DNA of 64,000 bases from Propionispira arboris. GTDB taxonomy: Bacteria; Bacillota; Negativicutes; Selenomonadales; Selenomonadaceae. Both the position numbers and the translations under genes were made by a program. The notes below the pieces were generated by a model that saw only the letters and a list, made by a program, of their open reading frames with translations, made no database searches and was not told the origin of the DNA. Below are positions 54,475-63,839 of this stretch, piece after piece (positions within the stretch are counted from its first letter, which is position 1; every line of letters starts with the position of its first letter). The DNA lies in assembly GCF_900109225.1 (NCBI RefSeq), contig NZ_FNZK01000021.1, positions 1 to 64,000 on the forward strand, given 5' to 3'.

Positions 54475-55503
54475 TTATAAAAACATATCCCAAGATACTG
54501 CTGTACCTTTTATTATATCGTGATTAACCCTTTTTCCTAATAATATATTGTAGTACTTAGGGCTTAATCCACTACCTGGACGAATGCTTCGCATATTTTT
54601 TTCTGTAACAACATCCCCCGTTTTGATATTCTCTACAATATATAAACTACGCCGAAATTGAAGTGACTTCTTTTCCTCTTCTTGAATTTCATAACTGATA
54701 TGTCCTAATGCCCGCCAAGCACTCCTGCACTCCTGCACCAGTTGTGCCATTTCTCCTGGTTCCAAGGAAAATGCCGCATCTACCCCACCATCTGCCCGTG
54801 CTAATGTGAAATGTTTTTCAATAACAATTGCGCCTAAAGCTACACTAGCCACAGCAACACCTATTCCCAACGTATGATCCGATAAACCAACTTTACACTT
54901 AAATAACCGCTTCATATGTGGTATAGTCAAAAGATTTGTTTCTTCTGGAGTAGAAGGATAACTACTCGTACATTTTAAAAGAGTCAAATCCGTACATCCA
55001 TTTTCACGTACCGTTCGAACCAAATCATCCAATTCAGCTACAGTTGTCATTCCAGTCGAAACAATAATTGGTTTCCCCGTTTGTGCTACTTTTTTAATCA
55101 AAGGTAAATCTATATTTTCAAAAGATGCAATTTTATAACATGGCACATTCAGACTTTCCAAAAAATCTACAGAGGTTGCATCGAAAGGTGTACTAAACCC
55201 TAAAACCCCCAACTCTTTACAACGTTGAAAAATTGCTTTATGCCATTCCCATGGAGTATAGGCTTTTTGATAAAGTTTATACAAAGAAGTGCCTTGCCAT
55301 AAACTATCTTTATCATTTATAAAAAACTCTCGTTCATTAATATCCAATGTCATTGTATCTGCTGTATATGTCTGGAGTTTTATTGCATCTACACCAGCTT
55401 TAGCTGCTGATTCAACTATTTTCAAAGCACGTTCTAATGACTGATTATGATTTCCTGACATCTCAGCTATAATAAAGGGTTCTTTCCCTTCTTCTATAAA
55501 CAT
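54475..55503 (-). CDS. pseI: Pseudaminic acid synthase (NeuB family)
   Basis: Condenses a 6-deoxy-2,4-diamino-altrose derivative with phosphoenolpyruvate to give a pseudaminic-type nonulosonic acid. The TIM-barrel start FIIAEMSGNHNQSLE, KLQTYTADTMT, the EKHFTLARADGGVDAAFSLEP stretch near residue 235 (PseI-like rather than NeuB-like) and the C-terminal SAF antifreeze-like domain (RRSLYIVENIKTGDVVTEKNM) are intact. 342 residues is typical. AGGAGATG precedes the ATG. Together with pseB, pseC and pseG it defines the pathway. Confidence 0.93.
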   Translation of the reverse strand: MFIEEGKEPFIIAEMSGNHNQSLERALKIVESAAKAGVDAIKLQTYTADTMTLDINEREFFINDKDSLWQGTSLYKLYQKAYTPWEWHKAIFQRCKELGVLGFSTPFDATSVDFLESLNVPCYKIASFENIDLPLIKKVAQTGKPIIVSTGMTTVAELDDLVRTVRENGCTDLTLLKCTSSYPSTPEETNLLTIPHMKRLFKCKVGLSDHTLGIGVAVASVALGAIVIEKHFTLARADGGVDAAFSLEPGEMAQLVQECRSAWRALGHISYEIQEEEKKSLQFRRSLYIVENIKTGDVVTEKNMRSIRPGSGLSPKYYNILLGKRVNHDIIKGTAVSWDMFL

Positions 55504-55514
55504 CTTTTCATCTC

Positions 55515-56204
55515 CTATCGAATTATCCTTCCAATTGAAAATGCTTCTGCAAACTCCGTTCCAATTATAAGGCCCCTAGACTTAGCTAATATTTCAACCC
55601 CTTTATAAGAACGAGGATGGGGATATTCTCGCATTTCCGATTCGTAGAATCTCAATGCTTTAATCTTCTTTTCAAAGAAGTTACTAATATCTACGTACCA
55701 ATTTGGTAAAAAAACCTTATCACTCGTCTGCATTTGCCATTCAGTACTTGATAAAGTTTCAAAAAATAAAAGAGTGTGTACACTTTGTCCTGGTAAAGGT
55801 CTACACGCTGTAATTACTGCATTATGAGTTATCATGTGATCAATATTTACATCTCCAGCATGATGAGTATATACCGTATCTGGTTGAAAATTACCCATAT
55901 ACTCTTCTATTGGTTTAATCACATCTAACAATGCAATACTATCCATTCTATTGTCTGGAAAATTACACTGTTTCACCTTTTTGGCTCCCATAAAAGCTGC
56001 AACTTGACAGGTATTTTTATATAATACATTTAATTCATGTTGATATTTCTCTATATCTCTCATATCATTCCGACTAGTCAATCCTTCAGCCATAATGATA
56101 ATGCGGACATCATCACCATTGGAAATATGCTTTAATATGGTTCCACCACATCCTAAAATTTCATCATCTGGATGTGCTGCAACCACCAAAACTTTTTTAT
56201 TCAT
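55515..56204 (-). CDS. PIG-L family deacetylase
   Basis: 229-residue zinc-dependent N-deacetylase. The motif AAHPDDEILGCGG gives the metal and catalytic residues, with TVYTHHAGDVNIDH as the later His motif. Members remove acetyl from N-acetylated sugars. In this cluster it may free an amino group on a Pse intermediate so that a formyl group can be added by one of the two neighbouring enzymes. It overlaps the next gene upstream by 8 bases, and GAGGAC precedes the ATG. Confidence 0.88.
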   Translation of the reverse strand: MNKKVLVVAAHPDDEILGCGGTILKHISNGDDVRIIIMAEGLTSRNDMRDIEKYQHELNVLYKNTCQVAAFMGAKKVKQCNFPDNRMDSIALLDVIKPIEEYMGNFQPDTVYTHHAGDVNIDHMITHNAVITACRPLPGQSVHTLLFFETLSSTEWQMQTSDKVFLPNWYVDISNFFEKKIKALRFYESEMREYPHPRSYKGVEILAKSRGLIIGTEFAEAFSIGRIIR

Positions 56205-61679: not shown

Positions 61680-62826
61680 TTTCCAAAACTTCTTTCAACA
61701 CATCTACCACATTAGTTTGTTGTTCATCTGTTAAGCTATAGTATAGCGGTAATGTAAAAGCTTCTGCATAATAGTTTTCACTATTAGGAAAATCCCCCAT
61801 ATTAAACCCTAATTGCTGATAATACGGCTGAGTATGCACTGGAATATAATGCACATTCAATATAATTCCTTTTGTCTTCATTTTATAAAATATATCTTTC
61901 TTGTTTAATTTAACTTTTGATAAATCCAATCGTACGACATAAATATGCCATGATGAATTTGTATCTGGGTGCTGATAAGGTAATGTTAACGGTAAATCTT
62001 TTAACAGCTCATTATATCTGTCAGCCAAGTATCTACGGCGAATAATGAATTCATCTAACCGGTCCATTTGACTATACCCCAAAGCTGCTTGCATGTCCGT
62101 CATTCGATAGTTAAATCCTAAATTAATTTGCTGATAATACCATGGACCATCTGCTTTGCCCTTTAAGAACGATTCATCACGTGTAATACCATGATTACGA
62201 AAAAGTTGCAAATTTTTGTATAAAATATCATCATTTGTCAGTACCATCCCACCTTCTCCAGTAGTAATAATCTTAACTGGATGAAAACTGAATACGGTCA
62301 TATCAGAATACCTACACGACCCGATTTTTGTATTCTTATATTCCCCACCGATACAGTGTGAGGCATCTTCTAACACCGTAAAATTATATTCCTGTGCTAA
62401 TTCATAAATTCGTTTCATATTACAAGATTGTCCTGAAAAATGGACTGGTACAACAATTTTCGGTTTTTTATTTGTATTTCTCAGCTTAGTTTCCAATTGA
62501 TCAACACTCATATTGTAAGTATCAGTATCTATATCCACAAAATCAACCGCAGCACCACAATACCGTGCACAATTGGCCGAGGCTACAAAAGTATTCGGTG
62601 TGGTCCATAACACATCATCTTTCGCAAGCCCAGCTGCCAAACAAGCTATATGTAATGCAGATGTCGCATTCGTTACAGCTACAGCATACTTCACCCCACA
62701 ATACGCTGCTACTTTTTGTTCAAATTTTTCAATAGCGGGTCCTTGCGTCAAAAAATCAGATTTCAAAACATTAACTACAGCATCAATCTCTTTTTGGTTT
62801 ATGCTTTGTTTACCATAATATATCAT
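61672..62826 (-). CDS. pseC: UDP-4-keto-sugar aminotransferase PseC
   Basis: PLP aminotransferase of the DegT/DnrJ family that adds the 4-amino group in pseudaminic acid synthesis. VTNATSALHIACLAAGL, the PLP Lys in FSFHPVKIITTGEGGM and FRNHGI are intact; 384 residues fits PseC. Its ATG shares a base with the pseB stop (TAATG), a coupling signal. Together with PseB it makes the UDP-4-amino-altrose intermediate. Confidence 0.94.
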   Translation of the reverse strand: MIYYGKQSINQKEIDAVVNVLKSDFLTQGPAIEKFEQKVAAYCGVKYAVAVTNATSALHIACLAAGLAKDDVLWTTPNTFVASANCARYCGAAVDFVDIDTDTYNMSVDQLETKLRNTNKKPKIVVPVHFSGQSCNMKRIYELAQEYNFTVLEDASHCIGGEYKNTKIGSCRYSDMTVFSFHPVKIITTGEGGMVLTNDDILYKNLQLFRNHGITRDESFLKGKADGPWYYQQINLGFNYRMTDMQAALGYSQMDRLDEFIIRRRYLADRYNELLKDLPLTLPYQHPDTNSSWHIYVVRLDLSKVKLNKKDIFYKMKTKGIILNVHYIPVHTQPYYQQLGFNMGDFPNSENYYAEAFTLPLYYSLTDEQQTNVVDVLKEVLENA

Positions 62827-63839
62827 TATTTATTCATCTCTCTTAATTCTTCTACTGTCAAAAAAAATGGATTTGTTCCAGAATTATATTCAAATCCGTC
62901 ATCAACAGGATTACCTGTTTCTCCTATTGCATTTCTTGTATAGTCAACGGCTTGAGTGAAACTGATACTTGGTTTAATCACATAATGATCAGCAAACTCT
63001 AGCGTTTCATAGCAGGTATCCGCCGGACACATAATTTCATGCAGTTTTTCACCGGGACGTATACCTACAATTTTCGTTTGTACCCTTGGATCAATAGCTT
63101 TTACCAAATCCATAATCCGCATAGAAGGAATCTTTGGAATAAATGTTTCTCCACCTTGCATCCGCGAAAAATTTTTCAAAACAAAATCTACGCCATCTTC
63201 CAATCTAAGCCAAAACCTAGTCATGCGTTCATCAGTAATGGGCAGTTCTAATGTACCATTTTTTATAAGGTTTTTAAAAAATGGTACGACCGAACCACGA
63301 GACCCAACAACATTACCATATCTTACAACTGAAAATCTTGTTGGTCTATCACCAACAAGATTATTTCCCGCAACAAAAAGTTTATCTGAACAAAGTTTAG
63401 TTGCTCCATAAAGATTAATTGGATTTGCCGCTTTGTCCGTAGAAAGTGCTATTACTTTCTGCACACCACATGCTATCGCTGCATTAATAACATTCTGAGC
63501 ACCATTTACATTCGTTTTGATACATTCCATGGGATTATATTCTGCTGCTGGTACCTGTTTTAACGCCGCAGCATGAACCACATAGTCTACTCCATAAAAT
63601 GCCTGTTCCAGCCTATATTCATCTCGTACATCACCAATAAAATAGCGCATACATGGTTGATTAAATATCTGCTGCATTTCAAACTGTTTCAATTCATCTC
63701 TCGAATAAACTATTACTTTTTTAGGTTGATATTTTTCCAGTAATATTTTTATGAATTTTTTGCCAAAAGATCCTGTCCCACCCGTAATTAATATAGATCT
63801 ATTATTAAACACTGTTACCCTCTTCTCATCATAGTTCAT
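62826..63839 (-). CDS. pseB: UDP-GlcNAc 4,6-dehydratase, inverting (PseB)
   Basis: First step of the pathway: inverts C-5 while making UDP-2-acetamido-4-keto-2,6-dideoxy-hexose. The NAD loop [34 protein letters not shown] (catalytic Lys and YxxxK) and [18 protein letters not shown] are the PseB/FlaA1 signature. 337 residues. Its ATG overlaps the stop of the preceding partial gene in ATGA. Confidence 0.95.

Follow-up and report, generated by a model that had tools for sequence, protein, structure and literature searches.

Ten genes at positions 54475-63839 of the window (the 64,000 nucleotides of Propionispira arboris contig NZ_FNZK01000021.1 that were analysed) form what appears to be a variant operon for pseudaminic acid. 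We consider it about 60% probable that this operon makes cytidine monophosphate (CMP)-activated pseudaminic acid in which formyl stands in for both N-acetyl groups. The predicted product is 5,7-di-N-formyl-pseudaminic acid (Pse5Fo7Fo), perhaps also carrying an 8-amino group. The proposal centres on two formyltransferase-like proteins, here called FT1 and FT2, and a deacetylase of the PIG-L type. The ten genes are:

62826..63839, minus strand: pseB, UDP-GlcNAc 4,6-dehydratase (5-inverting); TIGR03589, 552.8 bits, cut-off 407.75
61672..62826, minus strand: pseC, UDP-4-amino-4,6-dideoxy-AltNAc transaminase; TIGR03588, 558.7 bits, cut-off 423.5
60783..61679, minus strand: aldo/keto reductase (AKR) of an AKR-spsF-aminotransferase module; PF00248, 113.5 bits
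59920..60723, minus strand: spsF-type CMP-sugar synthetase, in the stead of PseF; PF02348, 112.2 bits; TIGR03584 (PseF), 34.5 against 205.7
58656..59951, minus strand: class III aminotransferase (AT3), GSA-aminomutase-like; PF00202, 165.5 bits; PRK06209, 395.7, below the cut-off of 486
57587..58651, minus strand: pseG, UDP-sugar hydrolase; TIGR03590, 317.9 bits, cut-off 153.55
56896..57612, minus strand: FT2, putative formyltransferase in the PseH place; PF00551, 41.4 bits, cut-off 26.1
56197..56883, minus strand: FT1, putative formyltransferase of an FT1-PIG-L cassette; PF21553, 80.8 bits, cut-off 27; PF00551, 22.2, below the cut-off of 26.1
55515..56204, minus strand: PIG-L/LmbE-type de-N-acetylase; PF02585, 96.1 bits, cut-off 28.2
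54475..55503, minus strand: pseI, pseudaminic acid synthase; TIGR03586, 512.3 bits, cut-off 340.25

On the minus strand the order is thus pseB, pseC, AKR, spsF, AT3, pseG, FT2, FT1, PIG-L, pseI. The spacing between neighbours ranges from -32 to +59 bases, so the ten genes are probably read as one transcript. PseB, PseC, PseG and PseI all scored above their NCBIfam equivalog cut-offs and PseH is absent, as in a PseJ-type pathway. An earlier note on this DNA had named the four pse genes, two formyltransferase genes and the PIG-L gene, and all of these were found as open frames on the minus strand where it had placed them. The AKR, spsF and class III aminotransferase genes of the same run were not mentioned there.

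Judging from homology, PseB and PseC would convert UDP-GlcNAc into UDP-4-amino-4,6-dideoxy-L-AltNAc. FT2 would then formylate the 4-amino group, a step that PseH performs elsewhere; its position, its fusions and the absence of PseH point this way. PIG-L would strip the N-acetyl group at C2 and FT1 would formylate the freed amine, as suggested by their pairing and by PIG-L chemistry, and this swap could precede PseG, follow PseI or fall between the two. PseG and PseI would lead to Pse5Fo7Fo, which the spsF product would activate, and the AKR and aminotransferase possibly convert the 8-hydroxyl of the same sugar to an 8-amino group. C2 of UDP-GlcNAc becomes C5 of the nonulosonate. With the C4 nitrogen taken by PseH or FT2, the removable N-acetyl is therefore the one at C2, which becomes N5.

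Two collections of loci were compared with the window. The FT1 loci came from a profile scan of genome contigs with an FT1 alignment and are the best 80 of 399 stretches. The PseI-selected sample holds all PseI matches at E ≤1e-100 in 398 genomes of the phylum and 380 of the class, giving 111 loci including the window; it was chosen without regard to FT1 or PIG-L, and its controls lie within the window's phylum. The pooled set comprises 186 loci, with five of the 80 scan loci (L032, L033, L034, L044 and L068) left out because their contigs are as long as those of loci already in the class sample. A strong PseH was defined as at least 120 bits with a purpose-made profile (20 seed rows of at least 120 bits), weaker GNATs not being counted. 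The FT1 of L117 (two overlapping open reading frames, ORFs) and the FT2 of L084 (two fragments) were counted as present.

FT2 in the PseH slot

No match to the PseH model TIGR03585 above its cut-off of 93.1 was found in the genome, which is 97.01% complete in 40 contigs, so that a missing piece could in principle hold a PseH; the top match reached 53.5 bits. The earlier note had proposed this genome-wide search, and its observation that the cluster holds no PseH-like GNAT was confirmed for the whole of 54475-63839. Six sub-threshold GNAT matches were considered as a PseH elsewhere in the genome. The top one, at C36:235148, alone was examined; its closest model is of the SpeG type (82.3 bits, under that model's cut-off), it adjoins an ORF that by inspection looks like a chemoreceptor, and it was rejected. 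Sub-threshold GNAT matches to TIGR03585 are ordinary, being present in 13 of 14 control genomes.

FT2 occupies the place in which PseH is found in related operons. In the pooled loci PseH lies directly after pseG in 24/35 cases, and FT2 lies directly after pseG or is fused to it in 18 of the 24 FT2 loci that have pseG. The gene directly before FT1 is a PseH above the TIGR03585 cut-off in L025, L026, L027 and L028 (112.3 to 137.9 bits) and FT2 in the window, L021 and L022. PseG-FT2 fusions were found in L031, L057, L072, L111 and L199, and a PseG-PseH fusion in L079 (131.2 bits with TIGR03585, above cut-off). PseH and PseG catalyse consecutive steps, and the fusions thus suggest the PseC product as the substrate of FT2. 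FT2 (26 loci) and strong PseH (38 loci) co-occur in none of the 186 pooled loci (Fisher p = 0.0028, kinship ignored). On the strength of its position, its PseG fusions and the absence of PseH, FT2 probably formylates the 4-amino group, which is C7 of the product. The suggestion that one formyltransferase replaces PseH is therefore favoured by the comparative data, with FT2 as the candidate.

The structure model of FT2, with a predicted local distance difference test (pLDDT) of 89.6, has a formyltransferase fold whose nearest relatives among the matches listed are 1zgh, HypX and WbkC. The comparison gave Z = 21.7 for 1zgh and Z = 19.8 for WbkC, a sugar N-formyltransferase, with a root-mean-square deviation of 2.4 over 205 residues. 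The protein probably starts at the Met near 57546; upstream residues show no conservation, and pLDDT is low for the first 17.

Other genes also take the PseH place. Among them are a WbqC-like protein in L040, another type of formyltransferase in L085 and, named by inspection, methyltransferase-like proteins and an ATP-grasp/SDR set. The WbqC-like protein was seen at L040:9198-9989 (PF08889) and, by resemblance alone, at L051:4154-4930; WbqC may be an enzyme of N-acyl groups. A locus from the same genus as the window, L192, has the operon pseB, pseC, pseF, pseG, PseH, SDR, FabH-like, pseI, its PseH scoring 114.4 bits, so that operons of a single genus can differ in their acyl part. Between PseH and pseI this locus carries a FabG-like SDR and a FabH-like ketosynthase (L192:7292-9070), a pair that suggests a 3-hydroxyacyl, perhaps 3-hydroxybutyryl, N-substituent.

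The FT1-PIG-L pair and the AKR-spsF-aminotransferase module

FT1 is tightly coupled to PIG-L. In the PseI-selected sample, 15/15 FT1 loci carry PIG-L compared with 2/96 of the others (p = 1e-16), the totals being 17 loci with PIG-L and 15 with FT1. When eight independent pairs were drawn on the PseI tree, PIG-L was concordant with FT1 in 7.9 on average and discordant in none (sign test p = 0.0078). Among the 80 FT1 loci, PIG-L was present in 78 (L071 and L108 are cut by a contig end), pseI in 72 and any pse gene in 76, and the gene immediately downstream of FT1 is PIG-L in 77/90 pooled loci. The distance correlation between FT1 and PIG-L was 0.56 (74 loci) or 0.59 (39 loci), not above that between FT1 and PseG (0.61, 39 loci).

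FT1 is independent of PseH, which accompanies it in 5/15 loci of the PseI-selected sample and occurs in 24/96 of the others (p = 0.53). Since the FT1-PIG-L pair is found together with PseH, with FT2 or with other genes in that slot, the comparison indicates that it does not perform the PseH step. FT1 most likely exchanges the C2 N-acetyl, C5 of the product, for formyl. The earlier idea that the deacetylase frees the other amine and a second formyltransferase caps it gains from the 15/15 pairing, which makes FT1 the candidate for the capping.

The PIG-L protein has the residues characteristic of its family. Within its AHPDDE motif, A10, H11, D13 and D14 are invariant, as is the distal H123, and P12 and E15 are conserved in at least 90% of 20 aligned rows; we take this motif and the distal His to be the zinc ligands. 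Its model (pLDDT 91.2) has BshB and diacetylchitobiose deacetylase as nearest folds, with template modelling (TM) scores of 0.76-0.78 by query length. Both enzymes remove 2-N-acetyl groups from GlcNAc units, which fits the assignment of PIG-L to C2. For FT1 the fold was assigned by sequence only; its closest solved relative is PDB 1zgh from C. thermocellum (222 bits).

Folate-dependent formyltransferases such as ArnA use an Asn-x-His ... Asp catalytic triad, and the Asn two positions before the His is visible in the ArnA row of our alignment. The corresponding motifs are C[VI][IVC]FH in FT1 and N[LIV]V[VI]H in FT2, with small variations. The His and the downstream Asp are invariant in the alignments of both. 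Because His and Asp are kept and FT2 has a formyltransferase fold, formyl transfer by FT1 and FT2 is likely. With the Asn of the triad lost, they are best described as working like the sugar N-formyltransferase family and not as textbook members of it.

The relatives of FT1 extend well beyond this operon, to 399 stretches in one scan, the best 80 of which come from several bacterial phyla and some archaea. The 71 synthases of FT1 loci (70 of the 80 scan loci and the window) comprise 68 that match PseI and three that match the NeuB model at E ≤1e-100; thus, the cassette is mainly, not solely, pseudaminic. In L070, L073 and L083, two of them archaeal, FT1-PIG-L stands beside low-scoring synthases, which are probably the three NeuB-matching ones.

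In L119 (6958-9050) a GNAT takes the place of FT1 before PIG-L, preceded by an ORF that by inspection is SDR-like. This arrangement would follow if the amine freed by PIG-L were open to any acyltransferase that the locus provides; the GNAT perhaps acts on the same freed amine with another acyl group, and a cassette for a hydroxyacyl group on N5 is possible. GNATs are also fused to neighbouring functions, as GNAT-FT1 in L080, PIG-L-GNAT in L090 and GNAT-PseI in L144.

The AKR, spsF and AT3 genes form a second recurrent unit, spanning 58656-61679 in the window and found at L024:2905-4617 and L042:5154-7193. In the PseI-selected sample the AKR occurs in 21/23 AT3 loci compared with 4/88 others (p = 1e-16), and the link holds on independent pairs (median p = 0.016). 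Fusions join AKR to spsF in L024, spsF to AT3 in L042, L085, L089, L101, L102 and L170, and all three in L172. Being fused with spsF, AKR and AT3 are tied to the nonulosonate itself, and that same sugar is the module's probable substrate. An 8-amino nonulosonate would result if the 8-hydroxyl were oxidised and then transaminated, which we put forward as a candidate route. An AKR and an aminotransferase also stand around pseF as separate genes in Aeromonas islands, with no function assigned in the accessible part of that report (PMC7874193), and 8-amino-3,5,7,8,9-pentadeoxynonulosonic acid is known from the Flexibacter maritimus O-polysaccharide (PMC3210612).

Taken together, a broader picture can be drawn, which as a whole we regard as doubtful. 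The product would be 5,7-di-N-formyl-8-amino-8-deoxy-pseudaminic acid (residue 287.112 Da), and bacterial and archaeal nonulosonate operons would be built from exchangeable cassettes at C7 (PseH, FT2 or other), C5 (PIG-L with FT1 or another acyltransferase) and C8 (AKR and aminotransferase). If so, N5-modified nonulosonates would in general be made from an N-acetylated precursor by way of the PIG-L cassette.

Objections and alternatives

Several observations weigh against the di-N-formyl reading. PIG-L occurs without FT1 in two PseI loci, L119 and L122, and the FT1 loci L042 and L065 lack PIG-L. The FT1 label needs 12 changes on the PseI tree (8/200 shuffles as low) and 12 on each of the PseG (104/200) and PseC (200/200) trees; PseG and PseC do not track FT1, and PseI tracks it weakly, so the trees do not establish co-adaptation of the later enzymes. 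The mutual exclusion of FT2 and PseH loses significance when relatedness among the loci is taken into account (p = 0.25 in 110 loci, 0.125 in 175), and in the 111-locus sample it reached p = 0.11. In the kinship-aware comparison the two never go the same way, with too few differing pairs for significance, and weight is therefore laid on gene position and fusions. L041, L043 and L084 hold FT2 beside a PseG-fused GNAT, the FT2 of L084 being in two fragments. The similarity of FT2 to PseJ is weak, at 24 bits for the window protein (phmmer) and 38 bits for a six-row profile. In both FT families the catalytic Asn is replaced by V, I or C, and FT1 falls under the PF00551 cut-off (22.2 against 26.1). 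In the pooled loci the Asn position is I in 48, V in 37 and C in 5 of 90 FT1 ORFs and V in 25/25 FT2, counts that leave out one FT1 and one FT2 fragment without the motif. 1zgh, aligned with FT1, likewise has no Asn there. Finally, the absence of PseH proves little by itself, because annotated pseH was missing in 62 of 209 tallied Aeromonas islands (58 with pseG only, four with neither) in the part of the survey available (PMC7874193).

A rather unlikely alternative is that the product carries one N-formyl only, with FT2 replacing PseH to give Pse5Ac7Fo and FT1 and PIG-L acting on another amino sugar of the same glycan. In its favour, 5-acetamido-7-formamido pseudaminic acid is known from Pseudoalteromonas distincta KMM 638 (cited in PMC3210612), FT2 occurs without FT1 in L029, L030, L031, L122 and L199, and the window has more sugar genes, such as the epimerase-type SDRs at 42932-44011 and 47754-48689. 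By contrast, FT1-PIG-L sits within the pse operon, and loci found through FT1 with no PseI criterion had pseI in 72/80 and some pse gene in 76/80. The earlier note had allowed for either a mono- or a di-N-formyl pseudaminic acid; the comparative data favour the di-N-formyl form over the mono-formyl one. It is unlikely that the sugar is a triamino nonulosonate in which AKR and AT3 introduce an amine at C8 for FT1 or FT2 to act upon. The AKR/AT3 co-occurrence (21/23 against 4/88), the fusions with spsF, the Aeromonas gene pair (PMC7874193) and the Flexibacter sugar (PMC3210612) would all fit such a product. However, FT1 and FT2 are each also found without AT3. It is missing from 65/80 FT1 loci and from 10/15 of those in the 111-locus sample, where no association with FT1 was seen (p = 0.30) and that with FT2 was weak (p = 0.09).

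We judge it improbable that FT1 and FT2 keep the fold and transfer another acyl group or none, so that the amines end free or otherwise acylated. No Asn is present in any FT1 or FT2 motif found, nor in 1zgh, as this would predict. The conserved His and Asp argue the other way, as does the FT2 fold, which is that of sugar N-formyltransferases with Z up to 21.7; members of both families are also found repeatedly, across several phyla, at the pathway's acyl-transfer positions. Highly improbable is a PseH in the unsequenced part of the genome making Pse5Ac7Ac, with the three extra genes decorating the glycan later. A genome 97.01% complete in 40 contigs has room for such a gene, but in relatives PseH directly follows pseG in 24/35 cases and FT2 holds that place here. 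The di-N-formyl reading thus remains the one we prefer.

Related systems and neighbouring genes

The N-acyl groups of bacterial surface nonulosonic acids are variable. As the N5 group stems from the N-acetyl of UDP-GlcNAc, any other group at N5 needs a deacetylation step, and FT1-PIG-L is a concrete, widely distributed candidate for this deacetylation and reacylation. If its role is as proposed, a function is suggested for 1zgh and gene content would predict the acyl pattern in several hundred loci. The canonical CMP-Pse5Ac7Ac pathway (PseB, C, H, G, I, F) shares PseB, PseC, PseG and PseI with this operon. The latter has no PseH and has spsF for PseF, and it adds FT2, FT1, PIG-L, AKR and a class III aminotransferase.

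PseJ (PDB 6ci2, 6ci4, 6ci5, 6edk) is listed as a formyltransferase, the role proposed for FT2, and has a pseudaminic-acid name. It comes from Anoxybacillus and reportedly acts in place of PseH. The two are distant relatives (24 to 38 bits), and the presence of FT1 and PIG-L would not be accounted for by PseJ alone. Other families outscore the PDB PseJ chains against FT2, and PseJ was likewise missing at E ≤0.001 when the FT2 domain of the L072 fusion was searched against the PDB. PseJ does not appear among the 50 fold matches listed for the FT2 model, which weighs neither way. An identification of FT2 as PseJ by sequence was not shown at 24-38 bits to those chains. The entry 1zgh, named methionyl-tRNA formyltransferase from C. 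thermocellum in the PDB, is the closest solved relative of FT1 (222 bits) and, among the matches listed, has the fold most like that of FT2 (Z 21.7). Given its resemblance to FT1, it may itself be an enzyme of a nonulosonate pathway.

Among the matches listed, no open-access paper was found that describes PIG-L and a formyltransferase paired in a nonulosonate pathway. Deacetylases in pse islands are in print for the group I polar flagellin glycosylation islands of Aeromonas, which have no formyltransferase, the word 'formyl' being absent from the accessible text (PMC7874193). Geobacillus flagellin glycosylation islands have pse genes without PseH in types II-IV and a formyltransferase, fmt2, in type III; in the main text as available 'deacetylase' does not occur and fmt2 is not tied to a pathway step (PMC5109656). 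Halorubrum sp. PV6 makes 5-N-formyl-legionaminic acid, with formyl at N5, and its cluster has a formyltransferase gene, HrrPV6_1050 (PMC6137143). That sugar differs in being legionaminic and archaeal, and the route to N5-formyl is left open in the accessible text, from which 'deacetyl' is absent (PMC6137143). The FT1-PIG-L cassettes of L070, L073 and L083 are comparable with this system. Formyltransferases are also present in flagellin islands of enterobacteria (PMC4875605). In a 2026 survey of Pse loci in Clostridium, the available main text contains no word that starts with 'formyl' or 'deacetyl' (PMC13317340), and the sole mention of a formyltransferase in the accessible part of PMC3184161 stands in its references.

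The window's synthase gene is the only match in the genome to TIGR03586 at E ≤1e-100, so no second nonulosonate synthase was found at that threshold. With PF03102 there were two other matches, weak (42.2 and 35.6 bits against 305.1) and above that model's low cut-off of 22.1. A search for the flagellin transferase Maf with PF01973 gave no match; this model matched archaeal controls only, so the search is no test. Other features of the window are:

53056-54474: B12-binding radical SAM protein, directly downstream of pseI with a gap of 0; NCBIfam matches shown all below cut-off
51159..53054, minus strand: LIC12162-family transferase, downstream, candidate transferase of the activated sugar; TIGR04331, 239.5 bits, cut-off 225
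42932-44011 and 47754-48689: epimerase-type SDRs, further sugar genes

Downstream of the operon the order is the radical SAM protein, the LIC12162-family transferase, then glycosyltransferases and an RgpF-like protein. These genes make a surface glycan a plausible destination of the sugar. The radical SAM protein at 53056-54474 is possibly a methyltransferase for the same glycan.

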